Notes under the pieces: generated by a model | Seen by the model: the letters and a program-made list of their open reading frames with translations, nothing else | Told to the model about the DNA's origin: nothing | Databases searched by the model: none | Program-made: the position numbers and the translations under genes | Shown: one piece after another, positions 14,200 to 35,593 of the stretch | Numbering within the stretch: the first letter of the stretch is position 1 | How the letters are laid out: every line of letters starts with the position of its first letter | Origin: Nitrospirota bacterium | GTDB lineage: Bacteria > Nitrospirota > Nitrospiria > Nitrospirales > Nitrospiraceae | Length of the DNA: 64,000 nucleotides | Direction of reading: 5' to 3' | Assembly (NCBI GenBank): GCA_030645475.1 | Contig: JAUSMA010000014.1 | Location: forward strand, 62,001-126,000

Positions 14200-14228
14200 A
14201 ATTTCATTTAGATCAACAGGCACTCACA

Positions 14229-14506: not shown

Positions 14507-14538
14507 GACCACAACCCTACTCACCGTGGAGGATACCG

Positions 14539-16002: not shown

Positions 16003-16016
16003 ATATTGATATTATG

Positions 16017-16047: not shown

Positions 16048-16067
16048 GGACAGGGATCGAGGTTTTC

Positions 16068-17194: not shown

Positions 17195-17218
17195 GAGAAG
17201 AGGACCGAGCGTCCCACT

Positions 17219-17737: not shown

Positions 17738-17787
17738 CCGGGTAGCAGTGCGCACACAGTCTATCTCGGCCAGAGGTTTTTCACCCA

Positions 17788-17826
17788 GAGCCCAAGATCA
17801 CGAGAGTGGTCTTGGGCTTTGTGTTT
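17788..17826 (+). terminator. intrinsic terminator after the Fur-controlled operon
   Basis: GCCCAAGATCAC (17790-17801), a GAGA tetraloop and GTGGTCTTGGGC (17806-17817) form a 12-bp stem with one G-U pair, followed by TTTGTGTTT. It is a strong rho-independent terminator between the membrane protein gene and the second porin. Confidence 0.85.
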
Positions 17827-17884
17827 ACTGCCCAATGTTCATGATGAAAGGAGTGAGCGTAACAAGGTTATTCAACCACACATA

Positions 17885-17911
17885 GACCAGAGGCCTCAGA
17901 GTCCCGAGTCA
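17885..17911 (+). promoter_or_regulatory. leader motif before porin 2
   Basis: GACCAGAG at 17885-17892 and GAGTCCCGAGTCA at 17899-17911 repeat the motif pair of the first porin leader at the same 14-base offset. Upstream, CAATG, TCATGAT and GAAAGGAG also match the sequence around the end of the Com-like gene at 14420, as if this porin copy once had such a gene before it. Confidence 0.5.
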
Positions 17912-17944
17912 CTATCTACTTCGTAACAATGCAGGAGAACGTCT

Positions 17945-19462: not shown

Positions 19463-19524
19463 GAAAATGAAAACCGGCGGTCCTCGAAGACCGTCGGCCA
19501 GACGAGACGCATTCGACAAAAACT

Positions 19525-20259
19525 ATGACGACCAAGGATCAAGCCAAAACTGCATCTCCGCTAACACACATCTTGTCTATGCTGCACAAGATTGATCGCC
19601 TTCGCCTACCCGCTTCCTCTCGCCGCGACGTCGAAAGTATCCTCGTTCGACAAGTGACCAAGGAGTTGGATCACGCCCTCCCCTGGCAGCAGGGGCACGG
19701 GCGACGAACCGCAGCGCTCGCAGTGAGCATGGGCAAACGTGCTGGGCTTTCCCATGAGGCCCTGCATCAGCTCAAGCTTGCTTCCCTGCTTCATGACATT
19801 GGTCTCCTGACACTTCCTCCACACATCTTTTCAGAACGTCGCCCCTTGGAGGCCGAAACCTATATCGCCATACAATGCCACCCGAGAGTCGGAGCAGAAC
19901 TCCTCGAACCCTTTCACTTTCTTCGAGAAGCCCGCGTCTTCATCGCCCATCACCACGAACGATGGGATGGGTCAGGCTACCCCTACGGAATCAGGGGGCG
20001 ATTCATCCCGCTCGAAGCCAGGATCCTTTCCATTGCGGACGCCTTCGATGCGATCGAAGTGCCGGAGATCGAGGCCCCAGCCATCCGGACCAAAGTAGCC
20101 TACCGAATTCTGAGAGTTTCAGCAGGAACGCAATTTGACCGTGAGCTTATTGAGGTGTGCGGCCACTGCCTTGAGCAGCCGGATCATCGTCCCCTAATAG
20201 CACCATCGGTTTCGCGCCATGATGTTGTGTCAGACCTATTTCATGAGGAATCGCCATGA
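19525..20259 (+). CDS. stand-alone HD-GYP domain protein
   Basis: A 244-residue cytoplasmic protein lacking a receiver or sensor domain. HD-GYP motifs are present: HGRRTA near residue 58, LLHDIG near 90, CHPRVGAELL near 117, and HHHERWDGSGYPYGIRG near 141. They match the metal ligands of cyclic-di-GMP phosphodiesterases. The segment after ADAFDA, normally S-x-RPYR, is replaced by EVPEIEAPAIRTK, so substrate recognition may differ. The C-terminal 35 residues are unique. The stop overlaps the peroxidase ATG (ATGA), giving coupled expression. Activity is plausible but not certain. Confidence 0.8.
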   Translation: MTTKDQAKTASPLTHILSMLHKIDRLRLPASSRRDVESILVRQVTKELDHALPWQQGHGRRTAALAVSMGKRAGLSHEALHQLKLASLLHDIGLLTLPPHIFSERRPLEAETYIAIQCHPRVGAELLEPFHFLREARVFIAHHHERWDGSGYPYGIRGRFIPLEARILSIADAFDAIEVPEIEAPAIRTKVAYRILRVSAGTQFDRELIEVCGHCLEQPDHRPLIAPSVSRHDVVSDLFHEESP

Positions 20260-22019
20260 ACCATCACACGTTCCCAGCAATGCCTAGTCTTTCCATCGCA
20301 TTCTTCGTGCTGGTTGCAGCAGTGACGACCAATGGCTGCTCAGCCGGAGGCAATTCATCCGGTGGATCTTCTAGTCCACTGACAACCGGGACTCCAGGAG
20401 CCGAACAAGCAGTCGGTGAACGACTGTTTCTTGAAACCAGATTCGCGCAAGCCTTCAAAGTGTTCTTGGATAATGGCGGCAACGTGAACGATCCGAACAC
20501 CGACGACGCGGTCGTGAGAACAGTAGAAACCTCGACGCCCGGCTCGCCGATACCCGGTTCAATTAACCCAGGTCCATTCAACGGTCTGTCGATAAATTGC
20601 CGTGCCTGTCACATGGTTGATGATGTGTTGACAGCGCCAGGTGGCGGGATGCGGACTTATGCCGACTTCGCGCGCCGGAGTCCAATTCCGGCGAGGGCCG
20701 ATGGGAAGACTCACGCACCTCGCAATTCACCTGCGCTGGTCAATTCTACTCTGGATCGAACCGGCGGAGTTCTGTTCCATTTCGATGCGGAGTTCAACTC
20801 AATGGAGGATTTGATCGCGGCCACGTTCACAGGGAGGAACTTCGGATGGCTCCCCGGTGAACGCCCACAGGCCATCACTCATCTCGCACAAGTGGTGCGA
20901 GGCGACAATGGAACCGGCGACCTGGCACAGCAATTTGACGGATTATCGTATCGACTTCTTTTTACAGGGACGAACTCCGCCATCCCCGACGACTTCCGCC
21001 TGCCGCCTCAATTCCGCGCCTTTGTGGGATCGGGCACCGATCAGGAGATATTCGACGCCGTGGTGAAAGTGGTCACCGCCTACGTCAACGGGCTGCTTTT
21101 CTCGCAAACAGAAGACAGTGGAGCCCCCATCCGCTCACCGTTCGATGTCTTCCTAGAAGTCAACGGGCTTCCCCAGCAGCCGAACCCGAACGAAACTGAA
21201 CTCGATTATAGCCGGCGCTTACGGGCCTTAATCAACGCGCCAGGGTTCAGCCCGCAATTCGTGACGTCCAACCCGAACCGGACGGATGGCCAATTTCAGT
21301 TCCATCCCTCGCAGAACTTCGAATTCGGAGCGGCTGAGCTGGCAGGGTTAAAGATGTTTCTGGCAGAGCCGGCGGCGCTTCCCGCTTCACCTGGTGAATT
21401 GACTGCGGGGACGATCGGCAACTGTATCAGCTGCCATGCTGCGCCGAACTTCACGGATTTCAAGCTACACAATACCGGCACTGCGCAAAATGAATATGAT
21501 GCCATTCACGGAGCCAACCAGTTCGCAGGACTATCGATTCCAAACCTGGTGACCCGCAATGGAAACTACAATCAGTTTCTCCCTGCGACCGAGCTCCACC
21601 CTGCGGCAGCAGAGCCCTTCCGGGCAATCCCACTTCTGGCAGATCCAGCATTGACCGACCTTGGAGTCTGGAATATTTTTGCCAATCCCGACATGCCTGG
21701 CCCCCAGGCAAAAATTCGAACCATCTTATGCGATGACCAACAGCCCTGCCCGCTATCGGACAGTGTCCTGCTCGATCGGGCTATCGCGCGGTTTAGAACC
21801 CCCGGTCTTCGGGATCTGAGCCACTCTGCTCCCTACATGCATACGGGACAGTTCGACACATTGGACGACATCATCGGGTTCTATCGAGGAGTCTCCTCGC
21901 AAGCCCGTGCGGGGTCACTGCGAAACGGCGCCTCCCAACTCCAAGGCATCGCGCTGACAGCCGGCGATGTCACGTCGCTGGTTGCATTTTTAAAATCGCT
22001 GAACGAGGACTACCAATAG
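20256..22019 (+). CDS. diheme cytochrome c peroxidase/MauG-like lipoprotein
   Basis: A 587-residue exported protein. FFVLVAAVTTNGC is a lipoprotein signal with Cys28. Two heme motifs are visible: NCRACH (115-119) and NCISCH in the second half, followed by the family motif RTPGLRDLSHSAPYMHTGQFDTLDDIIGFYRG. It would use c-type cytochromes to reduce peroxide or carry out a MauG-like oxidation. Larger than classic CcpA (about 340 residues), it belongs to the long MauG-like branch. It is coupled to the HD-GYP gene and the second porin, so a role in oxidative protection during iron-related stress is an inference. Confidence 0.85.
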   Translation: MNHHTFPAMPSLSIAFFVLVAAVTTNGCSAGGNSSGGSSSPLTTGTPGAEQAVGERLFLETRFAQAFKVFLDNGGNVNDPNTDDAVVRTVETSTPGSPIPGSINPGPFNGLSINCRACHMVDDVLTAPGGGMRTYADFARRSPIPARADGKTHAPRNSPALVNSTLDRTGGVLFHFDAEFNSMEDLIAATFTGRNFGWLPGERPQAITHLAQVVRGDNGTGDLAQQFDGLSYRLLFTGTNSAIPDDFRLPPQFRAFVGSGTDQEIFDAVVKVVTAYVNGLLFSQTEDSGAPIRSPFDVFLEVNGLPQQPNPNETELDYSRRLRALINAPGFSPQFVTSNPNRTDGQFQFHPSQNFEFGAAELAGLKMFLAEPAALPASPGELTAGTIGNCISCHAAPNFTDFKLHNTGTAQNEYDAIHGANQFAGLSIPNLVTRNGNYNQFLPATELHPAAAEPFRAIPLLADPALTDLGVWNIFANPDMPGPQAKIRTILCDDQQPCPLSDSVLLDRAIARFRTPGLRDLSHSAPYMHTGQFDTLDDIIGFYRGVSSQARAGSLRNGASQLQGIALTAGDVTSLVAFLKSLNEDYQ

Positions 22020-22059
22020 GAGCGCTCGAAAGAGCATAGACCGTGCAGCCGGTGACCGA

Positions 22060-22140
22060 CACACCGGCCACGGAGTGGGAGTGCCATCCCACTTCGCAGG
22101 CGGGGGCCCTCACGTCCTCCTGAGGCCCTCCGCCCCACCT
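22060..22140 (+). ncRNA. structured RNA-like element A (two hairpins, UCCUCCU loop)
   Basis: Hairpin 1 is AGTGGGA/TCCCACT (22074-22080, 22087-22093). Hairpin 2 spans 22099-22134, with ends GGCGG and CCGCC, a 13-bp stem with two mismatches and loop bases TCCTCCT at 22115-22121. Hairpin 2 matches the element at 34549-34584 at 34 of 36 positions. The loop is complementary to Shine-Dalgarno sequences. Element A lies in the leader of the Com-like gene at 22264. The strand is inferred as plus. No known RNA family was recognised. Confidence 0.6.
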
Positions 22141-22212
22141 TATTGAATTGAGTTGTCCGTCCTGATTCGCCCGTCGATCAGGATAGACTAGGCCAAAGGA
22201 CAGAAAGTCCAG

Positions 22213-22250
22213 AGCCCATGGTTGTTCAACAGCCATGGGCTTTTGTTTTC
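22213..22250 (+). terminator. strong hairpin with T-tract directly before a gene (possible attenuator)
   Basis: AGCCCATGG and CCATGGGCT form a 9-bp stem whose loop can pair further (TGTT with AACA), followed by TTTTGTTTTC ending at 22250. The ribosome binding site of the Com-like gene starts at 22253, so readthrough of this terminator would decide expression of the next gene. Upstream lie CCTGAT/ATCAGG and GGAC/GTCC stems that could be part of a switching leader. Confidence 0.7.
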
Positions 22251-22490: not shown

Positions 22491-23144
22491 ATGAATCCTG
22501 AGCCCAACATGACCCAGGCACGGCCCCTACTCGTTGGTCAGGCGGCCTGGCAGGAGCGAAAACACCCTAGAGGTGTCCGATCATCCATGGCAAAACCGGC
22601 ACACTCGATGATGCTGCCTGACCGTATGAAAACGCTGCTTGCGCAGCTTCGTCGGCATGCTCCGCATGCAGCCGAACAACTCTTGAATGCTCAAACGGAG
22701 CGTGAGGTCCGGGATGTGATCTGTCAATTGTTCGACCTCACCTCCGTGCCGACAGACGCACATGACGCCACAGTCACACCGAAGAATCTTCCTCTGCACA
22801 TCGCGCAATACATTGACCTCAATCTGCCCAAAGGACTGACCCTCAAGACGTTGGCGCAGTTCCTCGGTTATTCGGAGAAATACTGTTCCGACTTCTTTCA
22901 ATCGACCATGGGGGAGTCTTTTTCTTCCTATCTCAAACATCGTCGACTGGAGAGAGCCACGCTCCTGCTCGCCGCCACAGAGAAAAGCATGGCTGAAATC
23001 GCGGCGGCGCTGGGATTCAGCGATCAATTCGCCTTCAGCCATTTCTTCAAACGCGCCACCGGCCAATCGCCGGTTCACTTTCGATTGCAGCACAGTCAGC
23101 ACCAACACCGTTCCCCCTTACTTTTGCCGGAAGGATCCCGATGA
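22491..23144 (+). CDS. AraC-family transcriptional regulator
   Basis: A 217-residue DNA-binding protein. The C-terminal 100 residues are an AraC/XylS double helix-turn-helix: LTLKTLAQFLGYSEKYCSDFF for the first helix pair and MAEIAAALGFSDQFAFSHFFKRATGQSPVHFR for the second. The N-terminal 85 residues are helical with no cupin, so the inducer is unclear. ATG 22491 follows AGAGG closely; ATG 22509 is an alternative. The stop overlaps the membrane-fusion protein start (ATGA), so it probably regulates this export operon. Confidence 0.87.
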   Translation: MNPEPNMTQARPLLVGQAAWQERKHPRGVRSSMAKPAHSMMLPDRMKTLLAQLRRHAPHAAEQLLNAQTEREVRDVICQLFDLTSVPTDAHDATVTPKNLPLHIAQYIDLNLPKGLTLKTLAQFLGYSEKYCSDFFQSTMGESFSSYLKHRRLERATLLLAATEKSMAEIAAALGFSDQFAFSHFFKRATGQSPVHFRLQHSQHQHRSPLLLPEGSR

Positions 23145-24400
23145 CAGGCGCACCGATACGCGATGCCGATGTGTCCGTCCTGACCTTGCCGCGAGACGAA
23201 GCCCCTCGCACTCCACGCCCGCCACGGTCATGGCTCAAATGGGTGACGGCAGGAATCGCCGCAGGCTGTTCTCTAACAGCATTATATTGGTATGCACCCC
23301 GCTCATCGTCCTTGCCGGAAGTGGACACGGTACCGATGCGTGTCGTTGGCAGACAGACCCTGACCTCACCTCTCACCGCAAGCGGCTACGTGGTGGCACA
23401 GCGCCAGGCCTCTGTGGCTTCCAAAGGGACCGGACGCCTCGAATATCTCGGCGTCACAGTCGGAAGCCATGTCAAGACGGGAGACATCATTGCACGAGTC
23501 CAGCAAGACGACGTGCAGGCGATCCACAACCAGGTTCGCGCACGCCTGAACGTAGCCAAAGCAGCCTTGGCAAATGCGCAAGCAGAATTACGGGATGCTC
23601 AACTGAGCTATACCCGCACCAAAGCTCTGTTGCCGAATCAATTCGTCTCGCAAGCCGAGTTCGATACGGCCTCGACGCGCCTCCGGCGGGCTGAAGCGGC
23701 CGTGCGGTCGTCCGCAGCCGCGATTACCGCCGCTGAAGCGGACGTGCAAACCGCCGATGTGATGCTGGAAAACACGCTGATTCGGGCTCCGTTCGAGGGA
23801 ACAGTCCTCAAGAAGTTCGCCGAGATCGGTGAAGTCGTCGCGCCCATGGCCGGCTCTGCCAGTTCGCGCGGAGCGGTGGTGCTCATCACGGACATGACAT
23901 CGCTCTCGGTCGAGACCGAGATCTCGGAATCCTCGATCTCTCAGATCGAGCAAGGCCAATCGGCCGATATCACCCTAGATGCAGTGCAAGGCAAGCATTA
24001 CCCCGCGACGGTCGACCAAATCGTGCCGACTGCCGACCGATCCAAGGGCACAGTGCTGGCGAAAGTTCGCTTCGTCGAGCGTGACGATCGCGTACTCCCG
24101 GAAATGAGTGCCAAGGTTTCCTTCACACCGGTCGCTCGATCGAGCGATTCGGCACAACCTCGGCTGTTTGTTCCTTCGTCCGCACTCGTGCAGAAAAACG
24201 GCCGACCCGTCCTCTATGTACTCGAAAACGAGACCGCCCGTGAAGTCTCCGTAGAAGAAGTGTCCATGAGCGGTGGAGACAGCGAGGTCCGCGGGATGCT
24301 GGCGGCATCGGCACAAGTGATCCTCGCGCCACCGTCATCGCTACAATCGGGCATGAAAGTCCGTCTCCGAATATCCCAGCAAGAGGAGCATCAGCCATGA
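23141..24400 (+). CDS. periplasmic adaptor (HlyD/MacA-type membrane fusion protein)
   Basis: A 419-residue membrane fusion protein. A transmembrane segment lies at about 33-52. The lipoyl-like halves (SGYVVAQRQASVASKGTGRLEYLGVTVGSHVKTGDIIARV, and later NTLIRAPFEGTVLKKFAEIGEVV) flank a long helical hairpin (about 115-215). A beta-barrel and membrane-proximal domain follow. It would bridge the inner-membrane ABC components with an outer-membrane channel. No TolC gene is in the window. It overlaps its neighbours by four bases on both sides. Confidence 0.9.
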   Translation: MTGAPIRDADVSVLTLPRDEAPRTPRPPRSWLKWVTAGIAAGCSLTALYWYAPRSSSLPEVDTVPMRVVGRQTLTSPLTASGYVVAQRQASVASKGTGRLEYLGVTVGSHVKTGDIIARVQQDDVQAIHNQVRARLNVAKAALANAQAELRDAQLSYTRTKALLPNQFVSQAEFDTASTRLRRAEAAVRSSAAAITAAEADVQTADVMLENTLIRAPFEGTVLKKFAEIGEVVAPMAGSASSRGAVVLITDMTSLSVETEISESSISQIEQGQSADITLDAVQGKHYPATVDQIVPTADRSKGTVLAKVRFVERDDRVLPEMSAKVSFTPVARSSDSAQPRLFVPSSALVQKNGRPVLYVLENETAREVSVEEVSMSGGDSEVRGMLAASAQVILAPPSSLQSGMKVRLRISQQEEHQP

Positions 24401-25077
24401 ATCAGCCTGTCGTTGAATTCCAACGTGTCTCCAAATCCTATTTTCGAGAGGAACAAGAGATACCGGTCCTAAAAGATTTCAGCTTGTCCGTTCCACGGGG
24501 ACAATTTCTTGCCATCATGGGACCGTCTGGATCCGGCAAAACCACGATCCTCAATCTGGTCGCAGGCCTAGACCGTCCCACTCAGGGCACCATCCACGCA
24601 GCCGGTCTTGCCGTCTCGCAGCAAGGGGAGTCGGATCTCGCCAGATGGCGGGCCCGGCACATCGGCTTCATATTCCAATTCTACAATCTCATTCCGGTAT
24701 TAACCGCAGCGGAAAACGTGGAACTGCCGCTACTGCTCAGCACGCTGACACGACGAGAGCGATTCACGCATGTCCAGGCAGCCCTCGGTCTTGTCGGGTT
24801 GCATGATCGGGTCCATCATTACCCCCGTCAGTTGTCGGGGGGACAGGAACAGCGAGTCGGGATCGCGCGTGCCATCGTCAGCGACCCCACAATCTTATTG
24901 GCGGATGAACCCACCGGCAACCTCGATCGAACCGCAGCCGAAGCCATCATGGCGCTTCTCTCGCGGCTGCATCACGAACTCAACAAGACGATCCTCATGG
25001 TGACCCACGATCCACGGGCCGCGGACTATGCCCAGGAGACTCTCCATTTCGACAAAGGAACGGTGACGCGCTCATGA
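24397..25077 (+). CDS. ABC transporter ATP-binding protein (MacB/LolD type)
   Basis: A 226-residue ATPase. Walker A is GPSGSGKTT (42-50), the signature LSGGQ (146-150), and Walker [13 protein letters not shown] (166-177). These are the marks of the LolD/MacB/FtsE group, which drive mechanotransmission rather than substrate passage. It pairs with the two FtsX-like permeases that follow, and the stop overlaps the next start. Substrate unknown; in other bacteria such complexes export siderophores, lipids or peptides, and the iron-related context favours metallophore export without proof. Confidence 0.92.
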
Positions 25078-26243
25078 CGCTTGGAACATTGATCGTTCGC
25101 AATCTCCGGCGGCATTCCCTGCGCGTCGTACTGACGGCACTCGGCATCGCCACCGTCATCCTCGCTTTCAACCTCATCGTCACAACGGTTCGTGCCTGGT
25201 ACGCGGGCGTCGAGGCCTCAATCCCCAACAGACTGATCGCTCGCCATGCCGCCTCGCTGTCCATTCATCTTCCGCTCGCCTATCGAGACCGTATCGCCAC
25301 GCTGGATGGAGTGACCGGCGTCACCTACGCCAACTGGTTCGGCGGTGTATACCGTGACGCCAAGGGATTTTTCCCTCAGTTCGCCGTCGAACCGGCTTCG
25401 TTTCTGGATCTCCACTCCGAACTGTCGATAACGGACGAAGAGCGCCACGCCTTTCTCAGCGATCGGCGTGGCTGTGTGATCGGCCGTCGGCTGGCGGCGC
25501 TGTACGGCTGGAAAGTCGGAGACGTGATCGCGCTCAAGGGCACGATCTATCCCGGAGACTGGGAATTCGTCGTGCGAGGGATATACCGCGGCAACGACAG
25601 TGCCACGGATGAAACCTGGATGCTGCTGCGCTGGGATTACATGAACGAACGCCGGCAGCAAATAGACCCCGATCGGGCCGGCACGGTCGGCTGGTACGTC
25701 ATCCGCATCGCCGATCCGTCCCTTGCCGGGCGTGTGAGCCGGGCGGTGGATGCGGAATTCGGCAATTCCACGGCAGAGACCAGAACGGAAACCGAGCAAG
25801 CGTTTCAAGCCGGATTCGTCGCCATGTCCGGGGCCATTATCAGCGCGCTGAAACTTCTGGCGATCGTGCTGAACGGCGTCACGCTGCTGGTGCTCGCCAA
25901 TACCCTCGTCATGGCGGTGCGCGAGCGCACGAAGGAATTGGCTGTGCTGCGAACGCTCGGCTTTCGGCCAAGCCACCTGGCGGGCTTGGTCACGGGAGAA
26001 GCGCTGCTCATTGCAGGGATCGGCTCTGCCCTGGGCATCGCGATCACAATCCCCGCCTCGCACTTCTATGGGGTGCTCGTTGCCGCCAAACTGGGAAACT
26101 TCTTCCAACATCTGACATTGCACCTAAGCACACTACTGTTGAGCGCATCGGTCACGCTCTGCATCGCCGTCTGCGCAGCGGTATTCCCCATTCTTGCACT
26201 CTTGCGCGATAAGATCGCGGAGGACTTGCATAACGCCGGATAG
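25074..26243 (+). CDS. FtsX-like ABC permease (first)
   Basis: A 389-residue MacB/DevC-type permease. One N-terminal helix (about 14-39) is followed by a periplasmic domain of about 220 residues (MacB_PCD-like), then three C-terminal helices (about 265-295, 315-345, 350-380) including the typical ERTKELAVLRTLGFRPSHL cytoplasmic loop. It overlaps the ATPase gene and is followed at 11 bp by a second permease. The two would form a heterodimer. Confidence 0.9.
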   Translation: MTLGTLIVRNLRRHSLRVVLTALGIATVILAFNLIVTTVRAWYAGVEASIPNRLIARHAASLSIHLPLAYRDRIATLDGVTGVTYANWFGGVYRDAKGFFPQFAVEPASFLDLHSELSITDEERHAFLSDRRGCVIGRRLAALYGWKVGDVIALKGTIYPGDWEFVVRGIYRGNDSATDETWMLLRWDYMNERRQQIDPDRAGTVGWYVIRIADPSLAGRVSRAVDAEFGNSTAETRTETEQAFQAGFVAMSGAIISALKLLAIVLNGVTLLVLANTLVMAVRERTKELAVLRTLGFRPSHLAGLVTGEALLIAGIGSALGIAITIPASHFYGVLVAAKLGNFFQHLTLHLSTLLLSASVTLCIAVCAAVFPILALLRDKIAEDLHNAG

Positions 26244-26254: not shown

Positions 26255-27427
26255 ATGAAACTTCTTTTGGCCTACAGTGTTCGAAACGTCTGGGTGCGGA
26301 GCAATACGGCGGCGCTGACCGTAGCCGGGCTGGCACTGGTCAGCTTGATTCTGCTGGCGGTCCTCATGCTGGGAAATGGGTTGAACCGGGCGCTGGTTGA
26401 AAGCGGTTCACCGAAGAACGTCCTGCTGCTGCGCAAAGGCGCGACCACGGAAATCTCGAGTGGGATCTACCGCGACCAAGCGCATATCGTGCGCACACTC
26501 GCTGACGTCGCACAAGCTACTGGCGGCGCCCCCCTGGCTATTCCTGAATTGGTTGTCTTGATCAGCCTCGCAAAAGATGGAGCCGATACCCCTGCGAATG
26601 TCGTCGTCCGAGGCACGCAACCGGAGGCATTCCTCCTGCGGCCACAGGTTCGGCTGAGACAGGGGCGCGCCTGGCAACCAGGCACGACGGAAATCGTCAT
26701 CGGCGCGCAAGTCGCCAAGCGATTTCTCCGCGACGGCATCGGCTCTCACCTGCGCATAGGAAAACGGGAGTGGCTCGTCGTTGGCATCACGGAGGCTCAG
26801 GGAACAGCCTTCGAATCGGAAATCTGGGGAGATGTCGACCAACTCATGTCCACCTATGGACGGGATTCCTATTCGTCCTTAACGCTGCGCCTGCCCGCCC
26901 CCTCCGCCTTCCAAGGCATCGAGGACGCGATCGGATCGGACACGCGCCTCCTCCTCCAAGTGAAGCGGGAGCGCGACTACTATCAGGAGAAATCAGTCGC
27001 GATGTCGACCTTCATTCGTCTTCTCGGACTTACTTTTACTATCATCTTCGCGTTCGGCGCCATTCTGGGAGGCACCATGACCATGTACGGAGCGGTCGCG
27101 TCTCGCACCAGAGAAATCGGCATGCTCCGCGCGTTGGGATTTCCCCGGCGGAAAATACTCGCCGCGTTTCTCCTTGAGTCTCTCATGCTCGGAGCCTTCG
27201 CGGGCCTGCTCGCCATCGGGGGAGGCATGGCATTGCAGTTTGTCACACTTTCAACGATGAACTTCAGTACCTTTTCAGAACTCGCATTTCGCCTGACACT
27301 GACCCCTGCATCCGCGCTGATCACGATGGGGTTCGCGTTGGGCATCAGCATCGTCGGGGGAATCCCTCCGGCAATTCGAGCCGCCCGTCTTCCTGTAACC
27401 GCCGCATTGCGCGCCCCAGGCCGGTAG
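26255..27427 (+). CDS. FtsX-like ABC permease (second)
   Basis: A 390-residue permease with the same layout as its neighbour: one N-terminal helix (about 18-42), a large periplasmic domain, and three C-terminal helices with loop SRTREIGMLRALGFPRRKIL. It is the last gene of the exporter operon. Sequence divergence from the first permease suggests an asymmetric heterodimer. A Fur-box-like site begins 115 bp after its stop and starts the next operon. Confidence 0.9.
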   Translation: MKLLLAYSVRNVWVRSNTAALTVAGLALVSLILLAVLMLGNGLNRALVESGSPKNVLLLRKGATTEISSGIYRDQAHIVRTLADVAQATGGAPLAIPELVVLISLAKDGADTPANVVVRGTQPEAFLLRPQVRLRQGRAWQPGTTEIVIGAQVAKRFLRDGIGSHLRIGKREWLVVGITEAQGTAFESEIWGDVDQLMSTYGRDSYSSLTLRLPAPSAFQGIEDAIGSDTRLLLQVKRERDYYQEKSVAMSTFIRLLGLTFTIIFAFGAILGGTMTMYGAVASRTREIGMLRALGFPRRKILAAFLLESLMLGAFAGLLAIGGGMALQFVTLSTMNFSTFSELAFRLTLTPASALITMGFALGISIVGGIPPAIRAARLPVTAALRAPGR

Positions 27428-27541: not shown

Positions 27542-27560
27542 GATTTTGAGAATTGATATC
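27542..27560 (+). promoter_or_regulatory. Fur box before the tonB2-chelatase-receptor operon
   Basis: GATTTTGAGAATTGATATC matches the E. coli Fur consensus at 13 of 19 positions, counted by hand. By chance a few such matches are expected in 64 kb, but this one lies in the 188-bp gap before a TonB/receptor operon. TATGAT (27539-27544) may be its -10; no good -35 was found. Confidence 0.6.
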
Positions 27561-27615: not shown

Positions 27616-28752
27616 ATGACCGCGCCGACACATCACCCCCGACATCTGTTGCCAGCCTGGGGCTTCTCGTTATCCATTCACGCAATCGTGATGGGCATTG
27701 CGATCTCGCTGCTTCACGATCTTCCCAGACCACAGCCTCCTGTGCTGCGCATGGAGTTCCTCTTAACCGATCCCAAGAGTGTGACTGACGCAGCGCCCCC
27801 CCAAGACACCGCCACCGAACCGCCCTCCCCCGCAATGCCATCCTCCCCCCGCACGACCAGCACCTCGCCTACGCGCGTGATCGAGCAACGGACTCCCATC
27901 GAGTCTTCGATCGTTCAACGGATGGTGAACCCAGTCGCTACGGCTACCGTGGTACAGCGAGAAAAGAATCCGTCGGCCACGATGCACGATTCCACTCCCA
28001 TAGAAAAGCCTGCGCCAATTGAACAACAGCTTGAAACCCTGCCGCCTGTGACCGAATCCAGCAAGCCTGCCACCATGAATACCGCCGAGGCGATTGAACG
28101 CCCGGTCCTGACCGCATTCGCACACGTTACAGCGAGTCCTGCTGCGGAGCCAATTATCAAAAGCCTCCAAGATGGCATGTCGCATTCTTCATTTGCTGCA
28201 TCCGAGAGCGCTCAGGATACAACTGAGACTACTAAGAGCCTCTTATCGGATTCAGTCAATTCACCTGCTTCATCTCCCATTGACCACGCTCCCTCATCGC
28301 AGCCGACGAGCCAATCTTCCGCCACCGCGCCTCAACCAGGGCCTCAGACCGGCAACTCTTCGTCGCCCATGTCACAAATGGATTCAGGTTTACCTGCTAC
28401 CACTCCGCAACAAACTGTCGTGATGAACCATCCCGCTATCACGCGGACCATTCCATCGAGGCCGGACTATGGATGGCTGAATGAATTACTGAAACGTCGG
28501 ATCATGAGCCTGCAAGCCTATCCTCGCCTGGCACGCATGCAGGGATGGGAAGGTGTCGTCGTCGTCAAGGCCAGGATCAAGAGCGACGGCAGCTTGCTCG
28601 ACGCGGTCGTCACGGAAAGCTCGGGATACGCCTCCTTAGATGAAGACGCACTGAAGCTTATGCAGCGCGCCTGTCCCATTCGCCTACAGCAGGACCTTGG
28701 TCAATCACAGATCGATGTGCTGATCCCGATTCACTACAGACTCGAACGATGA
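27616..28752 (+). CDS. TonB family protein, second copy
   Basis: A 378-residue TonB. The N-terminal helix (about 14-33) has SxxxH (Ser18, His22). A long Pro/Ser/Thr-rich spacer spans about 45-280. The C-terminal domain has LQAYPRLARMQGWEGVVVVKARI and ESSGYASLDEDALKLMQRA. It lacks adjacent exbB/exbD and probably shares those at 10791-11580. It starts the operon that includes chelatases and the receptor, so it may be dedicated to that receptor. Its stop is next to the first chelatase gene. Confidence 0.88.
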   Translation: MTAPTHHPRHLLPAWGFSLSIHAIVMGIAISLLHDLPRPQPPVLRMEFLLTDPKSVTDAAPPQDTATEPPSPAMPSSPRTTSTSPTRVIEQRTPIESSIVQRMVNPVATATVVQREKNPSATMHDSTPIEKPAPIEQQLETLPPVTESSKPATMNTAEAIERPVLTAFAHVTASPAAEPIIKSLQDGMSHSSFAASESAQDTTETTKSLLSDSVNSPASSPIDHAPSSQPTSQSSATAPQPGPQTGNSSSPMSQMDSGLPATTPQQTVVMNHPAITRTIPSRPDYGWLNELLKRRIMSLQAYPRLARMQGWEGVVVVKARIKSDGSLLDAVVTESSGYASLDEDALKLMQRACPIRLQQDLGQSQIDVLIPIHYRLER

Positions 28753-28769
28753 AGAAAGGAAATACCTCC

Positions 28770-30458
28770 ATGTTCAAACAATCGATATCGGTCATCACAG
28801 CAGTGATGATGCTCGGTGCAAATTGGATCCCGGCCGACGCTGCCCCCTCGAAGATCGGATTTCTCGTGGTTGCTTCCGACCGAGGCTTTCTCGGCAATCG
28901 GGAACTCCGATCTCTTCTGGACGAATTTAAGAAATCCTACCCGGCCACACTAGCGTTGGTCGGGGGAAACTACTCCGGCGTAGAAGGCGAATATGCCGCA
29001 TACCTCACCCGTGCGGCCCAGGAGCTGAAGCAAGCAGGCGCCACCGAGATCGTTGCGATTCCCCTGTTTCTTTCCGAAGCCGATCCACTGCTCAAACGAG
29101 TCATGCCGCTGGTTCCCGCTTACACCGGCGGTCTTCCCGTCCGATGGGCCCCGGCGATGGCGCACGATTATCTCATCGGCCAGATCGTGCTCGATCGTGT
29201 GGAGGCCTTGAGCGAACATCCCGAATCGGAACGTTTGATCGTGGTCGCCACCGGCGCGCTCGATAGCGCCAGCGAGAAGGCGATTCGAACAGACGCCGAA
29301 CAGCTCGTCCAATACGTCGCACGATATAAGCATTTTCGAGAGGCCGAGGCCGTCGTCTACTACGATCGCGAAGCGGAGAACGCAGAGCAGAAAAATGCAG
29401 AGATCAAAGCGCGCTTGTTGGCCCAGATGGCCAAGCAAGGCCGTACGTTACTGGTGCCTGCCTTCATCGGACCCAAGTTCGACCATGCCATGTCCCTCAG
29501 CAGTTGGCTCGACGGTCAATTCAAGCAGACACAGGTCGCCTACAAACCGGAGGAATTACTCCCCCACCCCAATGCGCTGCTCTGGCTGAAGAAAACCGCG
29601 AACCGAGAAACGCCTCTGACGGCAAGCCAAATCGGTGTCGTGATCATGCCGCACGGATCGACCCAACCGTGGAACGATGCCGTAGAAAGCACGATCCAAC
29701 CCCTCATGGAGAAATATCCGATCGAGATGGCCTACGGCATGAGCGATCCATACATCATTCAAGATGCCGTCTCGCGATTGGAGCAGCGCGGGATCAGACG
29801 AATCGTCTTCGTCCGGATGTATGCCTTGGACCATCAAATGAAACCGACGACCGACTACATTCTGGGTTTGACTGAGCATGCTCCTGCCGACGGTCACGGC
29901 AGCGGACATAGCCAAACATCCGTCGCACCCCCTCAAGTCCGCACAGCCACGCTGTTTTCGACGTTTGGAGGCTATGAGCAGAACCAAGAGATTGCGCTCG
30001 TCCTTCATAAGCGGATTGCCGAGCTCAGCAAAGACCCCAGAAATGAGACCGTGCTGCTGCTCGCACATGGAGAAGCCACAGACGAAGGCAACGACAAATG
30101 GCTGGCCGTCATGAGCCAGAACATCGACCGACTCCGGCAGGACCCGCACTGCGCCAAGCTGAAAACGATCAGGGCGCTTACGGTCCGCGAAGACTGGCCC
30201 AAAGAACGTGAGAAAGCCGTCGCGGGCGTTCGTGCCACGATCGAGGAAGCCAGCAAGCATGGACGTGTCCTCGTAATCGCCAACCGGCTGTATGGCTCCG
30301 GTCCCTATAAATCGATGCTCAAGGGATTGACCTACGAGATCAACGAGAAAGGACTGGTCGATCCCGTTCTGACCGATTGGCTGCGGGACGGCATGACACG
30401 CATAACGGCTGAACTGATCCCGTCAAAGAGCGAGCAACCGGCGCAGGCGCATCCCTAG
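28770..30458 (+). CDS. exported tandem CbiX/CbiK-like chelatase
   Basis: A 562-residue precursor from ATG 28770 (AAGGA upstream). Signal peptide SISVITAVMMLGANWIPADA, then two chelatase-like units. Unit 1 (about 29-275) has its conserved strands ending VVASDRG and VVATGALD, without the catalytic histidine. Unit 2 (about 288-545) keeps His295 in IMPHGSTQP and His433 in LLLAHGEA. In CbiX-type enzymes the HGS histidine takes part in inserting cobalt or iron into sirohydrochlorin. A His-rich linker (DGHGSGH) sits within unit 2. An exported chelatase between TonB and a TonB-dependent receptor points to periplasmic metal or tetrapyrrole handling. Whether it chelates or only binds is open. Confidence 0.8.
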   Translation: MFKQSISVITAVMMLGANWIPADAAPSKIGFLVVASDRGFLGNRELRSLLDEFKKSYPATLALVGGNYSGVEGEYAAYLTRAAQELKQAGATEIVAIPLFLSEADPLLKRVMPLVPAYTGGLPVRWAPAMAHDYLIGQIVLDRVEALSEHPESERLIVVATGALDSASEKAIRTDAEQLVQYVARYKHFREAEAVVYYDREAENAEQKNAEIKARLLAQMAKQGRTLLVPAFIGPKFDHAMSLSSWLDGQFKQTQVAYKPEELLPHPNALLWLKKTANRETPLTASQIGVVIMPHGSTQPWNDAVESTIQPLMEKYPIEMAYGMSDPYIIQDAVSRLEQRGIRRIVFVRMYALDHQMKPTTDYILGLTEHAPADGHGSGHSQTSVAPPQVRTATLFSTFGGYEQNQEIALVLHKRIAELSKDPRNETVLLLAHGEATDEGNDKWLAVMSQNIDRLRQDPHCAKLKTIRALTVREDWPKEREKAVAGVRATIEEASKHGRVLVIANRLYGSGPYKSMLKGLTYEINEKGLVDPVLTDWLRDGMTRITAELIPSKSEQPAQAHP

Positions 30459-30530
30459 GCTGCCCGCCATCCGATGAAGGAACGATTCACAAACACACCG
30501 GGTTTATCACACACACAAAGGATCTGTTGC

Positions 30531-32606
30531 ATGAAGCTGCTAGAGAAGAACTGTCCCCCGAATGTTCCGTTGCTGCTCGTTGTCCTGACTGTTTCGCTCC
30601 TCCAGATCGCCCCACCACCAGTGCAGGCCGCAGAAGAGCCTCCGGTACCCGCGACCGACTCTTCCCAAGGCAATTCCGACCAACGATCATCGACGCTTCC
30701 CTCCGCCGCCACAGGACAGAACGGTCTCCGTGTCGACGATATTGTCATCACCGGGACCTGGACGCCACACGCGCAGAAGGACTCTCCGGTCGAGATTGAG
30801 CGGATCACGTCGAAAATGCTGGGACAAGCCGGGGCAACGGGCATACGGCAAGTCTTGCAGGACGTTCCCGCCATCGAGTTACGCCGGAGCGCGGGCGGAT
30901 TCCAAAACTTTCAAATTCAGGGTCTGGAAAGCAAGCACACGCTGTTTCTGGTCAATGGCCAGGAGCTCATCGGTTCAGTCGAAGGCGCCACATTTTCGCG
31001 AGATTTGCTGGCCTCCCCGGAAATCGAATCGATCGAAATCGTCAAAGGTGGAGCCTCTGTGCAGTACGGAAGCGACGCCATCGGCGGCGTCATCAATATC
31101 CGCACGAGAAAAGCCACTCAGCCGGTGGGCGCCACTCTCATCGGCCAATACGGTCGTTTCAACACCGTGACGACATTCGCTGCACCTGAATTCCGAAGCG
31201 CGGATGGGAAATTCGGCGGATACATCTCGGCCGGGGTCTCCAAGTCGGACGGAGTTGACTACACGCAGAACACACCTGCCACTAATGGCGATCCCAACTT
31301 TTCCACCAAAACCGTGAGCGGAAATTTCGACTATGCCCTTTCGAATTCCGCCAAGCTCTCCCTCTACACACACTACACCGACGATGACCGCGTGAGCCGC
31401 GGAGGGGCCACCTCCGCTTCCACGAGAACCCAGACAACCAGCAACAATGAGCGTGCCCAAACCGTACTCCGTTGGGACTGGAGTCCTGACGCGGTGTCTA
31501 CGTTGTCTTTCTGGGGCCACCACCAGACCTTTCAGAACGATTCACGAACCAACATTTTGAGCAACGGAGTTCAGAATAGGCTCTCGCGATTTACGCAAGA
31601 GCTCTGGGAACCACAATTCCAATACACGAGACAACTCGGGCAGCACCAGCTCTTCACAGTCGGCGGCGAACACGATATCCGCAAGATTCGCGGACAGAAT
31701 TTCTCCAACGGGAGCCCCATCCTCAATCTTACAGAGTCGGCAGGATGGTTCCAAGATGAGATCTCGGTTCTCCCCTGGATGGATATCCTCCTCGGCAGTC
31801 GCTACACCACGAACAGCGAGGCCGGAGGGTTCTGGAGTCCCCAAACGACCCTTCTTCTCAAGCCCGGAAACTTTCGGGGACGATTTACCTATACACGCGG
31901 TTTCCGAAGTCCTGGCCTGGACGAACTCAGCGCCTCCTTCATCGAGGGAGGATTTGCTGGAGTCGTCGGCAACGCCAATCTGGAGCCTGAAAAGTCGACG
32001 AGTTATACCGGGAATCTCGAATACTATTTCCCACGGGGCAAGATCGGAGCATCGCTCTTCCGCCATGAAGTGAGCAATCTCATCCAATTTATTGGAGGAA
32101 CCTGCTCAGGCTCCGACCTTGCAAATTTGCCGGGTATTGCAGCCCCCAATTGCCTCAAAGCACAGAACATTGCGGCCACAACGAGCCAAGGGTTCGAGTT
32201 GGAGGCGGGTGCCAGACCCGTAGATTGGCTGTCCTTCGAAACCGGCTACATGTACCTCGACTCCAAAGACGACAATACCGGGCAATACCTCTTCAATCGT
32301 TCCCGGCATGCGTGGAAAACACGGATGAACGTCGAGTACGAGGGATGGAACTTCACCACTCGCGTTCGCTACTTCTCCTCTTTTGGGTTCACCGATGCCA
32401 ATTCGAACGGACGAATCGATCGGAACCCGAGCGAGCTTGCACCCTCAAATATTCAGGTGGACATGCGGCTCTCTAAAACTCTGAAGAACGGGATCGAATT
32501 GTATCTTGGCGCCGACAATATTACAGAGTCGCGGGTCCCAGTCAGCACATCTTTTCCTCTGGAAGGCCAGCATCTCTACTACGTGGGCATGAAGATGACG
32601 ATGTAA
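30531..32606 (+). CDS. TonB-dependent outer-membrane receptor
   Basis: A 691-residue receptor. Signal peptide about 1-34, then a TonB box-like DDIVITGT (69-76), the plug with IRQVLQDVPAIELRRSAGGF and VQYGSDAIGGVINIR, and a 22-strand barrel ending YYVGMKMTM. The plug and TonB box put it in the siderophore/heme/cobalamin receptor family. I chose ATG 30531 for its AAGGA site and for the signal peptide; an in-frame ATG at 30474 lacks both. It sits between two exported chelatases, so the ligand may be a metallated tetrapyrrole or metal chelate. No FRAP/NPNL heme-receptor motif was recognised. Confidence 0.9.
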   Translation: MKLLEKNCPPNVPLLLVVLTVSLLQIAPPPVQAAEEPPVPATDSSQGNSDQRSSTLPSAATGQNGLRVDDIVITGTWTPHAQKDSPVEIERITSKMLGQAGATGIRQVLQDVPAIELRRSAGGFQNFQIQGLESKHTLFLVNGQELIGSVEGATFSRDLLASPEIESIEIVKGGASVQYGSDAIGGVINIRTRKATQPVGATLIGQYGRFNTVTTFAAPEFRSADGKFGGYISAGVSKSDGVDYTQNTPATNGDPNFSTKTVSGNFDYALSNSAKLSLYTHYTDDDRVSRGGATSASTRTQTTSNNERAQTVLRWDWSPDAVSTLSFWGHHQTFQNDSRTNILSNGVQNRLSRFTQELWEPQFQYTRQLGQHQLFTVGGEHDIRKIRGQNFSNGSPILNLTESAGWFQDEISVLPWMDILLGSRYTTNSEAGGFWSPQTTLLLKPGNFRGRFTYTRGFRSPGLDELSASFIEGGFAGVVGNANLEPEKSTSYTGNLEYYFPRGKIGASLFRHEVSNLIQFIGGTCSGSDLANLPGIAAPNCLKAQNIAATTSQGFELEAGARPVDWLSFETGYMYLDSKDDNTGQYLFNRSRHAWKTRMNVEYEGWNFTTRVRYFSSFGFTDANSNGRIDRNPSELAPSNIQVDMRLSKTLKNGIELYLGADNITESRVPVSTSFPLEGQHLYYVGMKMTM

Positions 32607-32642
32607 TTGGACTGCGAACGTTTCTTTCACTGGAGGTGCTCT

Positions 32643-33581
32643 ATGTTGTTCCTCATCATGTTGTTCATTGCCCTGCCTCTCGTAGTCGGTCCTGACGACC
32701 TGCTCGCGGCAGGTGCCCCCTCGCCGCAAGACAGCGGTCAGCAAAAGATCGGGGTCTTGCTGGTCAATCACGGATCTCGGTCCGTTACGTGGCGTCAATC
32801 GCTCTTGAACCTCGAAGCGCAAGTCGCCTCGCCAATATTGGCGCACTCGACCGTCAAGGGTCTGAAAACCGCTTTTATGGAATATACGGAACCGTCTATC
32901 GCCACCCGCATGAAGGAGTTCGACCGGGAAGGGTTTACGGATATCATCATTGTGCCGGTGTTCCTCACCGTCAGCCCGCACACGTTCGACGATATTCCGA
33001 CCATTGTGGGCTTGAAAGAGGATGCGCATTCCATGCAGCAACTCAAGATCGAAAATATCGAACGCTACACCTCGAAGGCCAAACCTCACATCACCCCGCC
33101 GCTCGACTTTACGGATATCCTTCAGCAAAACCTGCTGAGACGAGTGACCGCCCTCTCGAAGAATCCGGCCCAGGAAGGGCTGGTCCTCATCGGATACGGC
33201 GATGAGACCTACGACAAGGAGTGGGTCGAACTGTTCGATAAGGCGGCAGACTACGTTCGGCAACACACAGGGATTGCCGGGTACTCCTATGGCTGGTGCG
33301 GTCACATCGCAAACTATAAGCCTGAAGAAACGACCGCGGCAATCAATACCGTGCTCAAGAATGCGCGCACGGCCCTCGTGATCCCCGTACTCGTCGCGCA
33401 CGATGAACAGTTTCAAATCAAGATTATCGGCGATGGGATTGCCAAAGTGCCCGACAACAAGAGCCGGGTCCTCTATAAACCGGATTCGATCCTGCCCGAT
33501 CCGAATGTCGAGCGCTGGGTGGTCTCTGTGACGGATGAGTATCTGCGCAAGGTTCAGCCGCGGATATCCCGAGCCAACTGA
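32643..33581 (+). CDS. exported CbiK/CbiX-like chelatase
   Basis: A 312-residue precursor from ATG 32643 (GGAGG at 32632-32636). The signal peptide is LFLIMLFIALPLVVGPDDLLAAG. The mature part is a single full chelatase unit: IGVLLVNHGSRS holds the catalytic-type His43, and the second half has GLVLIGYGDETYDKEW, where a tyrosine stands in place of the histidine. Further histidines are in VSPHTFDD, GWCGH and VAHDEQ and could hold a metal. Periplasmic CbiK from Desulfovibrio is a precedent for an exported cobalt/iron chelatase. The stop overlaps the PepSY gene start by one base. Confidence 0.78.
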   Translation: MLFLIMLFIALPLVVGPDDLLAAGAPSPQDSGQQKIGVLLVNHGSRSVTWRQSLLNLEAQVASPILAHSTVKGLKTAFMEYTEPSIATRMKEFDREGFTDIIIVPVFLTVSPHTFDDIPTIVGLKEDAHSMQQLKIENIERYTSKAKPHITPPLDFTDILQQNLLRRVTALSKNPAQEGLVLIGYGDETYDKEWVELFDKAADYVRQHTGIAGYSYGWCGHIANYKPEETTAAINTVLKNARTALVIPVLVAHDEQFQIKIIGDGIAKVPDNKSRVLYKPDSILPDPNVERWVVSVTDEYLRKVQPRISRAN

Positions 33582-34177
33582 TGCTGGGATGGACAAGAAA
33601 TAGATTCCGCTGGCCGGAACGGGAAGCCCTGGCGCGGTTTAACCTGGCCGCGCACAGAGATATTGGATACATCTGTGCCTCCCTCATTCTCGCCTATTGT
33701 GTATCGGGCATCGCCCTCAACCACATTGGCGATTGGAACCCGGACTTCGTGATTTCGAAACGAACGATTTCCTTACCTCGTTCGTATGAGAAGACCGCCA
33801 TAACACAAGAAGCGATCAGCGATTTTGGAACGCTCGTGAATGAAGAGACCTACAAAGTCTATGACTTCCCGACCCCCGATCAAGTGAAGATCTACTATGA
33901 CAACGCCTCGCTGCATCTCAATTTTTCGACCGGGAAAGGGACCTATGAGAAAGTGGCGAGGCGACCAGTGTTGTACCAAGCCAACGCCTTGCACCTCAAT
34001 CGTCTCAAAGGCTGGAAATGGGCTTCGGACGTCTTCGCGCTCATCCTCATTATTCTCAGCCTAACCGGGCTCTTCGTCTTACGGGGAAAGCATGGGATGG
34101 CTCGGCGAGGTAAATGGCTGGTAGCGGCCGGGATGCTGCCGCCATTGCTGGCCCTGCTGATCTTCGAGCTCAAATAG
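33581..34177 (+). CDS. PepSY-associated transmembrane protein
   Basis: A 198-residue inner-membrane protein. The N-terminal helix (about 27-49, IGYICASLILAYCVSGIALNH) is preceded by His25 and contains His48. A PepSY-like segment follows (about 75-130), then two C-terminal helices (about 148-167 and 179-196) with His138 just before. This H...H layout is that of PepSY_TM proteins, some of which act as ferric reductases or heme b carriers. It is the last membrane component of the TonB2-chelatase-receptor operon. A reductive iron release role is plausible, not shown. Confidence 0.8.
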   Translation: MLGWTRNRFRWPEREALARFNLAAHRDIGYICASLILAYCVSGIALNHIGDWNPDFVISKRTISLPRSYEKTAITQEAISDFGTLVNEETYKVYDFPTPDQVKIYYDNASLHLNFSTGKGTYEKVARRPVLYQANALHLNRLKGWKWASDVFALILIILSLTGLFVLRGKHGMARRGKWLVAAGMLPPLLALLIFELK

Positions 34178-34504: not shown

Positions 34505-34590
34505 CATACACCAGCCCTGAAGTGGGAGTTGTGCCTTCCCACTTCAGGGGCGGGGACCCTCTCGTCCTCCTGAGGCCCTCCGCCCTCTCA
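34505..34590 (+). ncRNA. structured RNA-like element B (two hairpins, UCCUCCU loop)
   Basis: Hairpin 1 is a perfect 13-bp stem CCCTGAAGTGGGA (34515-34527) with its complement (34537-34549) around a nine-base loop. Hairpin 2 (34549-34584) matches that of element A at 34 of 36 positions, with loop TCCTCCT at 34565-34571. It lies after the zinc-ribbon gene at 34226, in the gap between convergent operons. A short ATAGGG/CCCTAT stem follows at 34605-34619 without a T-tract. No known RNA family was recognised. Confidence 0.6.
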
Positions 34591-34637: not shown

Positions 34638-35108
34638 CTACTTCTTGATCTGCTCGGCGAGATACCGGTCGAGGCCAACCTGACCGATCGTCCTGAGCTG
34701 GGTCTCAAACCAATCGACATGCTCCTCCGAGTCGACCACCATGTCTTCCATCAAGTGGCGGGTTGTGAAATCTCCACCCTTGGCACAATGGACAATGGCT
34801 TTTCGGAGGGACTCGACATCTTCACGTTCAAATCCCAGATCTGCCTTGAACAGGTCTTCCACCGTGCGCCCCGCCCCCACCTGATCGAGATGCGCGACAT
34901 CCGGGGTCCCGTCCAAATAGAGAATGTGATCGATCAGGCCGGAGGAATGACTGACTTCCTCTTGCGCCAAATGGCTGAAGTGTTCATGCAGTCGCTCATA
35001 ACCCCAATTCTTACACATGGCCGCATGCAGCAGGTATTGGTGTACGGCCGTCAGCTCCGACTTCAAGACCTGATTGAGGAACTCGACGACGCCTTCCTTG
35101 GCTTTCAT
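34638..35108 (-). CDS. bfr: bacterioferritin subunit, heme ligand lost
   Basis: A 156-residue ferritin-like subunit. Using E. coli Bfr numbering, it keeps Glu18 (KSELTAVHQ), Glu51, His54 and His130, but position 52, the heme-binding methionine, is valine. Glu94 is lysine and Glu127 is serine, so the ferroxidase site is also not fully standard. The C-terminal IGQVGLDRYLAEQIKK is typical. A longer reading frame reaches 35273, but ATG 35108 fits the family N-terminus MKAKEG. It lies eight bases after the other bacterioferritin gene, in the same operon, so a mixed 24-mer is likely. Confidence 0.88.
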   Translation of the reverse strand: MKAKEGVVEFLNQVLKSELTAVHQYLLHAAMCKNWGYERLHEHFSHLAQEEVSHSSGLIDHILYLDGTPDVAHLDQVGAGRTVEDLFKADLGFEREDVESLRKAIVHCAKGGDFTTRHLMEDMVVDSEEHVDWFETQLRTIGQVGLDRYLAEQIKK

Positions 35109-35116
35109 GATCGCCC

Positions 35117-35593
35117 TCAGCTCTCTTTCTTGATCTGTTCGGCGAGATAGTTCTCCAGGCCGACCTGCTTGATCGTTTCCATCTGCGTTTCGATCCAGTC
35201 GATATGCACATCGACATCCTTCGCCATATCTTCGAACATGTGGCGGGTCGTGAAATCCAGAACCTTCGTGCAATGGACGATGCCTTCGTTCAGCAATGTC
35301 AGCATTTCCTGCTCAGCTTTGAGGTCGAGCTTGAGCTGCTCAGGAACCGTTTCCCCCACCTGGACGGTATTCATGCGTTGTACGTTCGGCACACCTTCCA
35401 GATAGAGAATGTGCCCGATAAGTTCATCGGCATCCTTCATCTCGTCGATGCTGCGCTCCCGCACTGTATGCTGGAGCCGCTCATAGCCCCAGTTCTCACA
35501 CATCTTGGCATGGACGAAATATTGATTGATCGCGGTCAGATCTGCGGTCAGCACCTTATTCAGGACGTTGACGACACCCTCTTTTGCTTTCAT
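35117..35593 (-). CDS. bfr: bacterioferritin subunit, heme-binding, degraded ferroxidase site
   Basis: A 158-residue ferritin-like subunit, first gene of the pair. It retains Met52 (SIDEMKDAD), the heme ligand, and Glu51, Glu94 and His130. Three ferroxidase positions are changed relative to E. coli Bfr: Glu18 is Asp, His54 is Asp and Glu127 is Val. Its loss pattern complements that of the downstream gene. Paired bfr genes of Neisseria, Pseudomonas putida and Magnetospirillum show comparable division of labour. A good promoter lies about 120 bp upstream. Confidence 0.9.
   Translation of the reverse strand: MKAKEGVVNVLNKVLTADLTAINQYFVHAKMCENWGYERLQHTVRERSIDEMKDADELIGHILYLEGVPNVQRMNTVQVGETVPEQLKLDLKAEQEMLTLLNEGIVHCTKVLDFTTRHMFEDMAKDVDVHIDWIETQMETIKQVGLENYLAEQIKKES

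Follow-up and report, generated by a model that had tools for sequence, protein, structure and literature searches.

The window analysed here comprises 64,000 nucleotides of a Nitrospirota bacterium of the Nitrospiraceae (assembly GCA_030645475.1, contig JAUSMA010000014.1, positions 62,001 to 126,000 of the forward strand). On its + strand it carries a ten-gene Nitrospira operon, in the order AraC-HlyD-ABC-FtsX-FtsX-TonB-A-TBDR-B-PepSY, in which a TonB-dependent receptor (TBDR) stands between two chelatase-like proteins with predicted export signals, named A and B in this work. We have high confidence that the operon is a periplasmic iron/tetrapyrrole system, and we put the likelihood that it removes iron from heme at about one half. 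Our proposal, which we regard as evenly poised, is that the operon serves iron acquisition by handling, in the periplasm, a metal-tetrapyrrole taken up from outside, most probably heme, with A binding the compound, B demetallating it and a pump expelling the porphyrin. Within this scheme we infer the substrate, the direction of metal transfer, the role of the reductase and the export of porphyrin.

Two chelatase-like proteins flanking the receptor

Protein A (28749..30458, +) can be read as 569 residues from 28749, or as 562 residues from the ATG at 28770. In a profile search it matches the CbiX family PF01903 with 27.9 bits (E 3e-6), above the cut-off of 22. An AlphaFold2 model built on a 31-sequence alignment contains four alpha/beta lobes, with a predicted local distance difference test score (pLDDT) of 88.3 and a predicted template modelling score (pTM) of 0.86. 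The N-terminal half (residues 35-291) superimposes on the chelatase SirB (5zt7) with Z 20.5 over 230 residues at 3.0 A (Foldseek E 4.4e-5), on ferrochelatases with Z of about 18, on the periplasmic CbiK of Desulfovibrio vulgaris (2xvx) with Z 16.8 and on FetB of Porphyromonas gingivalis (9b86) with Z 16.3. In an hhalign profile comparison the two halves of A prove to be colinear homologues (P 99.6, E 5e-25), and each is in turn a homologue of B (P 98.5 and 97.2). Because the fold of the N-terminal half matches known chelatases and the halves are related to each other and to B, A is, as judged from sequence and model, an internally duplicated, fused pair of bilobal class II chelatases with four lobes in all; the C-terminal half is assigned to the chelatase fold from its profile match and predicted secondary structure. 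Pfam and NCBIfam scans returned no model dedicated to this four-lobe family, and neither A nor B matched the CobN/ChlH domain (PF02514) at E <=1 in a profile search.

HGS/HGE motifs lie at residues 302-304 and 440-442 of A. Among 31 aligned homologues the invariant residues include H302-G303 in lobe 3 (MPHG; His302 codon 29652..29654, +), H440-G441 in lobe 4 (AHG; His440 codon 30066..30068, +), Arg356, Arg513 and Asp44, the last of which occupies the position of the lobe-1 histidine. No second chelatase histidine is conserved in any lobe of this alignment; the N-terminal half is devoid of chelatase histidines, and both lobes of the C-terminal half lack the second catalytic one.

Protein B (312 residues; 32643..33581, +) is related to the same family and matches PF01903 with 59.3 bits (E 5.2e-16, cut-off 22) and the solved nickelochelatase CfbA (6m25) with E 1.4e-9, or 5.7e-11 when a profile of B is used; SirB is matched as well. 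B consists of two lobes, and the first of these can be aligned with CfbA across both catalytic positions. His43, which opens an HGS motif at residues 43-45 (HGSR; codon 32769..32771, +), aligns with the first chelatase histidine of CfbA, and His113 (SPHTFDDIP; codon 32979..32981, +) aligns with the second (GIHTTRDIP). Both are invariant in nine homologues, so that the canonical pair is kept. The structure model of B is of low confidence (pLDDT 59.8), and the predicted chelatase fold of B is for that reason founded on its match to CfbA and SirB. An open frame also extends upstream to a TTG at 32607; the start assumed in the original prediction, the ATG at 32643, is preceded by GGAGG, and that assumed for A, the ATG at 28770, is in frame, which makes both starts plausible. 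The original prediction had also taken both proteins for CbiX/CbiK-type enzymes with signal peptides. The chelatase fold is upheld, for A by the model and the SirB match and for B by sequence; the description as an ordinary enzyme of this type does not stand for A, which has duplicated four lobes and has lost the canonical histidine pair.

Hydrophobic N-termini resembling signal peptides are present in 31 of 31 A and 9 of 9 B homologues. This call was made with a simple hydrophobicity rule, not SignalP, and the signal peptides are thus predicted; their presence throughout both families supports the earlier claim and the putative export of A and B to the periplasm. A lipobox is absent from all of these 31 A and 9 B sequences. 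CbiX relatives within the phylum begin directly at the catalytic domain, without a hydrophobic N-terminal segment.

An operon in an iron context

The receptor between A and B (30474..32606, +) is recognised by PF00593 (5e-36) and PF07715 (5e-20), and its best model is the hemin receptor family TIGR01785. The last gene encodes a PepSY-type membrane protein (33581..34177, +; PF16357, PepSY_TM_like_2, 8.7e-17, above cut-off), a candidate inner-membrane reductase for periplasmic iron. Upstream, TonB (27616..28752, +) matches PF03544 (1.5e-14) and TIGR01352 (2.1e-16). The arrangement claimed beforehand, A and B flanking a TBDR with TonB upstream and PepSY downstream, is therefore real by Pfam profile matches. 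The gene order was correctly described; the extent of the operon was not, as it also reaches upstream to an efflux pump and an AraC-family regulator. The regulator is the first gene (22491..23144, +; PF12833 3.7e-21) and overlaps by four bases the gene for an HlyD/MacA-type membrane fusion protein (23141..24400, +; PF16576 8.8e-18), and both are kept in orthologous operons. These are followed by a MacB/LolD-type ABC ATPase (24397..25077, +; PF00005 2.2e-36) and two FtsX/MacB-type permeases (25074..26243, +, PF02687 9.8e-13 and PF12704 2.9e-7; 26255..27427, +, PF12704 1e-17 and PF02687 1.7e-14). Successive genes overlap or are separated by at most 15 bases, with the exceptions of 36 bases before the ATG of B and a 188-bp gap before tonB.

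This gap holds a Fur-box-like site, GATTTTGAGAATTGATATC (27542..27560, +), which falls within a conserved island of the alignment. It matches 13 of 19 positions, a score reached by 31 of 1000 shuffles and hence weak alone; five of the orthologous gaps reach 15/19 (0-2 of 1000 shuffles for each) and one more reaches 12/19. A conserved predicted Fur box, matching at 12-15 of 19 positions, thus precedes tonB in seven operons, and the whole looks like an iron-controlled operon. Genes for Fur, an FbpABC-like iron ABC importer with an FbpA-like binding protein and a second TonB are found elsewhere in the window (6069-10379 and 11577-12557), and a fur gene lies beside A in another locus (L103). Convergent with the operon is a gene for a bacterioferritin-like protein (35117..35593, -; PF00210 4.8e-31), and the list of open reading frames (ORFs) holds a second bacterioferritin-like ORF at 34638-35273. 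The original prediction had proposed that the two proteins handle metal with a tetrapyrrole or metallophore in the periplasm. The periplasmic metal/tetrapyrrole role is supported, as are export and the gene order, and its general reference to metals and metallophores can be narrowed to iron, and probably to heme, because of the conserved Fur-box-like site, the heme-type TBDRs and the HmuY genes that neighbour relatives of A, and the Fur and ferritin neighbours.

Conservation, distribution and flanking features

A was present in 21 of 296 sampled Nitrospirota genomes; close orthologues of B were present in nine, every one of which also has A. The order A-TBDR-B-PepSY was read in about ten further Nitrospira genomes; it is thus conserved beyond the source genome, and this recurrence excludes a chance arrangement. 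In six of these roughly ten operons, extra genes lie between A and B and the TBDR is a different one; where scanned, the extra genes encode a PEP-CTERM protein and a winged-helix (Trans_reg_C) regulator (L031 8196-8903, 4248-5660; L035 10741-11385, 13865-15490). Among the loci examined, B is confined to the A-TBDR operon and is always accompanied by PepSY, and three A-TBDR operons (L038, L093, L107) are without both.

Relatives of A extend beyond the Nitrospira operon to Manganitrophaceae, Nitrospina, Scalindua, gamma- and betaproteobacterial metagenome-assembled genomes (MAGs), a deltaproteobacterial MAG, Latescibacterota and Aliifodinibius. In several phyla A occurs without B, usually near a TBDR. 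When homologues were clustered at 60% identity, a same-strand TBDR gene lay within 2.5 kb of A in 11 of 19 clusters, a count obtained with a TBDR profile built partly from the same loci. The home genome holds only five plug-domain TBDRs in 3.75 Mb, which makes it unlikely that A and its receptor are adjacent by chance. Three loci (L098, L100 and L048/L105) have HmuY (PF14064 2e-19 to 9e-19) as the third gene, in the order A-TBDR-HmuY.

Several further features of these loci were observed. One Nitrospirota genome has two copies of A in tandem (L112, 5694-7484 and 8947-10680), and three other loci (L110, L118, L120) carry A in broken frames. In four genomes (G149, G187, G208, G249) an A-family gene lies at or near the edge of a large array of about 10-25 TBDR genes (e.g. 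G149 contig 1, 3801352-3853266). In the Nitrospira MAG G206 the gene for ammonia monooxygenase subunit B (PF04744 9e-152; L031 1-1247) lies directly beside the operon, so that this is probably a comammox organism. Upstream of the operon in the window, the region 12896-22019 encodes ApbE, two porin-like proteins, FMN-binding and HD-domain-like proteins and a cytochrome-peroxidase-like lipoprotein, parts of which also occur upstream of AraC in relatives; a palindromic Fur-box-like site (14181-14199) precedes a porin gene. Between this region and AraC lies a strongly structured RNA (22030-22250, +; z -7.4) that ends in an intrinsic terminator, is 72-78% conserved upstream of AraC in several orthologous loci and has no Rfam match at E <=1. 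A 78-nt partial copy follows just after PepSY (34508-34585), and these are the only two copies in the home genome. We considered this RNA as a riboswitch of the operon and rejected the idea, as other Nitrospira have a motif related to it after genes for di-heme-peroxidase-like proteins.

Proposed heme processing, alternatives and known systems

The receptors adjoining A in L099, L101 and L102 pass both curated heme/hemoglobin cut-offs (TIGR01785 and TIGR01786), and the HmuY-linked receptors of L100 and L105 carry the heme-ligand histidine between their FRAP and NPNL boxes. Heme is therefore the best-supported ligand for the A family. For the window operon it is not proven, because the corresponding histidine, between the FRSP and NANL boxes, is absent from the family of its receptor, and several further observations also weigh against our proposal. 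The window receptor scores 137.3 bits on TIGR01785, far below the cut-off of 316.85, and 121 on TIGR01786, below 323.75, although no other model fits it better than these two; the operon contains no HmuY; and some relatives of A lie near siderophore-type receptors (L094) or at the edges of TBDR arrays. By alignment, A is without the canonical catalytic histidine pair, since H302 and H440 sit in different lobes and no second histidine is conserved. In a search restricted to PF01126, the canonical heme oxygenase was absent from 11 A-bearing genomes.

In one alternative, A, and possibly B as well, would serve in the periplasm as tetrapyrrole carriers without catalytic activity, which would hold heme between their lobes, for example at H302 and H440, and pass it on without removal of the metal. 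The loss of chelatase histidines from A and the retention of one each in lobes 3 and 4, together with the invariant Arg356 and Arg513, would suit such a role, as would the fold match of A to the apo structure of FetB (9b86), titled 'without heme group'. However, B keeps a complete chelatase pair and its joint occurrence with PepSY suggests chemistry, and we consider a pure carrier role rather unlikely. Only slightly less probable in our view is the release of iron from a siderophore. In the pyoverdine release and recycling system of Pseudomonas aeruginosa (FpvG reductase, PvdRT-OpmQ), a TBDR, a PepSY-type reductase and a MacAB-like pump serve periplasmic iron release, with a siderophore as the ligand and without chelatase-fold proteins. 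By analogy, the receptor would import a ferric siderophore, PepSY would reduce the iron, A and B would take the metal and the pump would recycle the apo-siderophore. The same gene types, including an AraC regulator and an HlyD/MacB pump, are present here; in L094 the neighbours of A include FecI-type sigma-factor genes and siderophore TBDRs, L102 has a comparable group of sigma-factor, TBDR and PepSY genes, and A stands at the edge of the TBDR arrays of the four genomes named above. Against this, the chelatase fold binds tetrapyrroles and not siderophores, the siderophore model TIGR01783 gives the window receptor a lower score (81, against a cut-off of 223.5) than TIGR01785 does, heme is indicated by the HmuY-linked cassettes, and none of the window's ORFs can be recognised as a gene of siderophore biosynthesis.

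The proximity of B to CfbA and CbiX in sequence, and the range of metals used by class II chelatases (Co, Ni and Fe; PMC7689651), raise the further question of cobalt, nickel or corrinoid salvage, in which a ring of the sirohydrochlorin or corrin type would gain or lose its metal outside the cytoplasm. We hold this to be improbable: no cobalamin riboswitch is present in the window, the receptor reaches 98.8 on the B12 receptor model, far below its cut-off of 599.7, and the context of Fur, FbpABC-like genes, ferritin and HmuY is one of iron. That A and B are ordinary cytoplasmic chelatases of siroheme or cobalamin synthesis, with N-terminal segments that are not export signals, would agree with the export signals being predictions and with the start of the phylum's CbiX relatives at the catalytic domain. 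It is very improbable, as every homologue of A and B carries the hydrophobic segment, unlike those relatives, and as the home genome holds another CbiX-family protein besides A and B (L002).

In the heme-processing scheme that we favour, the TBDR and TonB would bring heme or a related metalloporphyrin across the outer membrane, where A would receive and bind it. B, with its canonical two-histidine site, would then remove the iron, and PepSY would reduce Fe(III) to Fe(II). Where an operon has neither B nor PepSY, A would need to accomplish this by itself or with different partners. Once released, the iron could enter the cell through other importers, such as that encoded by the FbpABC-like genes of the window, and be stored in bacterioferritin. 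Entry through FeoB is not claimed, as the proteins of A-bearing genomes that match PF02421 do so weakly and resemble other GTPases. The left-over porphyrin, which is toxic, would be expelled by the HlyD-ABC-FtsX (MacAB-like) pump.

HrtBA, a porphyrin/heme efflux system, is of this MacAB-like type. MacAB shares HlyD, ABC and FtsX-type permease components with the operon and differs in that the ATPase and two permeases are on separate genes here; in Escherichia coli, MacAB-TolC expels protoporphyrin IX (PMC4263509). A close parallel for the receptor and its neighbours is the Iht locus of P. gingivalis, in which the TBDR IhtA and the exported CbiK-like lipoprotein IhtB are proposed to take iron from heme (PMC10913741). 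As in that locus, a TBDR is paired with, and adjoined by the gene for, an exported protein of class II chelatase fold. However, IhtB is a lipoprotein accompanied by an ABC importer, IhtC-E, whereas A and B have no lipobox, and the operon described here has a four-lobe A, two chelatase-like proteins, an efflux pump, TonB and PepSY. FetB, for which a review (PMC13402209) reports metal exchange in porphyrins, and IhtB are probably one protein, to judge from their described roles. In the Hmu system of Bacteroidetes (HmuY-HmuR-HmuS), HmuY and a heme TBDR are joined by a chelatase-like protein, HmuS, on which the periplasmic removal of iron from heme depends (PMC10100974), and the A-TBDR-HmuY cassettes of L098, L100 and L105 resemble it in combining HmuY, a TBDR and a chelatase-like protein; HmuS, however, is of the CobN/ChlH type (class I), whereas A and B are of class II. 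The cobaltochelatase CbiK-P of D. vulgaris (2xvx/2xvz) is likewise an exported class II chelatase, but a single bilobal unit, whereas A is a fused pair without the histidine pair and the sequence of B resembles CfbA/CbiX. SirB and CbiX-L, which provide the best fold match of A and a bilobal plan similar to that of B, are cytoplasmic biosynthetic enzymes, unlike the duplicated and exported A, which has no catalytic pair.

The combination of an exported chelatase with a TBDR (Iht) and the periplasmic demetallation of heme (Hmu) are therefore already known. In the literature searched, which left most subscription papers outside its coverage, we found no description of a CbiX/TBDR system in Nitrospira, nor of the family of four-lobe A proteins, of A-TBDR-B combined with a pump and PepSY, or of the wide A-TBDR(-HmuY) cassette. 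The original statement that no such system had been described thus holds for the exact arrangement, and gives way to Iht for the pairing of a TBDR with an exported CbiK-like lipoprotein.

For Gram-negative bacteria, the question of how heme iron is freed outside the cytoplasm when no heme oxygenase is involved has yet to be settled, and its discussion centres on HmuS and IhtB/FetB of Bacteroidetes. The operon would represent an independent solution from environmental nitrifiers that relies on class II chelatases, and its natural variants (A alone, A with HmuY, A with B and PepSY) separate the roles of the parts. We tentatively suggest, at somewhat less than an even chance, that the A family is a fused double class II chelatase turned periplasmic heme processor in nitrifiers and their relatives (Nitrospira, Nitrospina, Manganitrophaceae, Scalindua, some Proteobacteria and Balneolota), and that with B, PepSY, the TBDR and the pump it would form a complete heme-oxygenase-free heme-iron system, with metal removal, reduction and porphyrin disposal in one Fur-controlled operon. 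This provides a concrete hypothesis for the four-lobe family and for the use of heme as an iron source by Nitrospira, and our results suggest that these organisms take iron from heme, or from a similar ring, in the periplasm without heme oxygenase.

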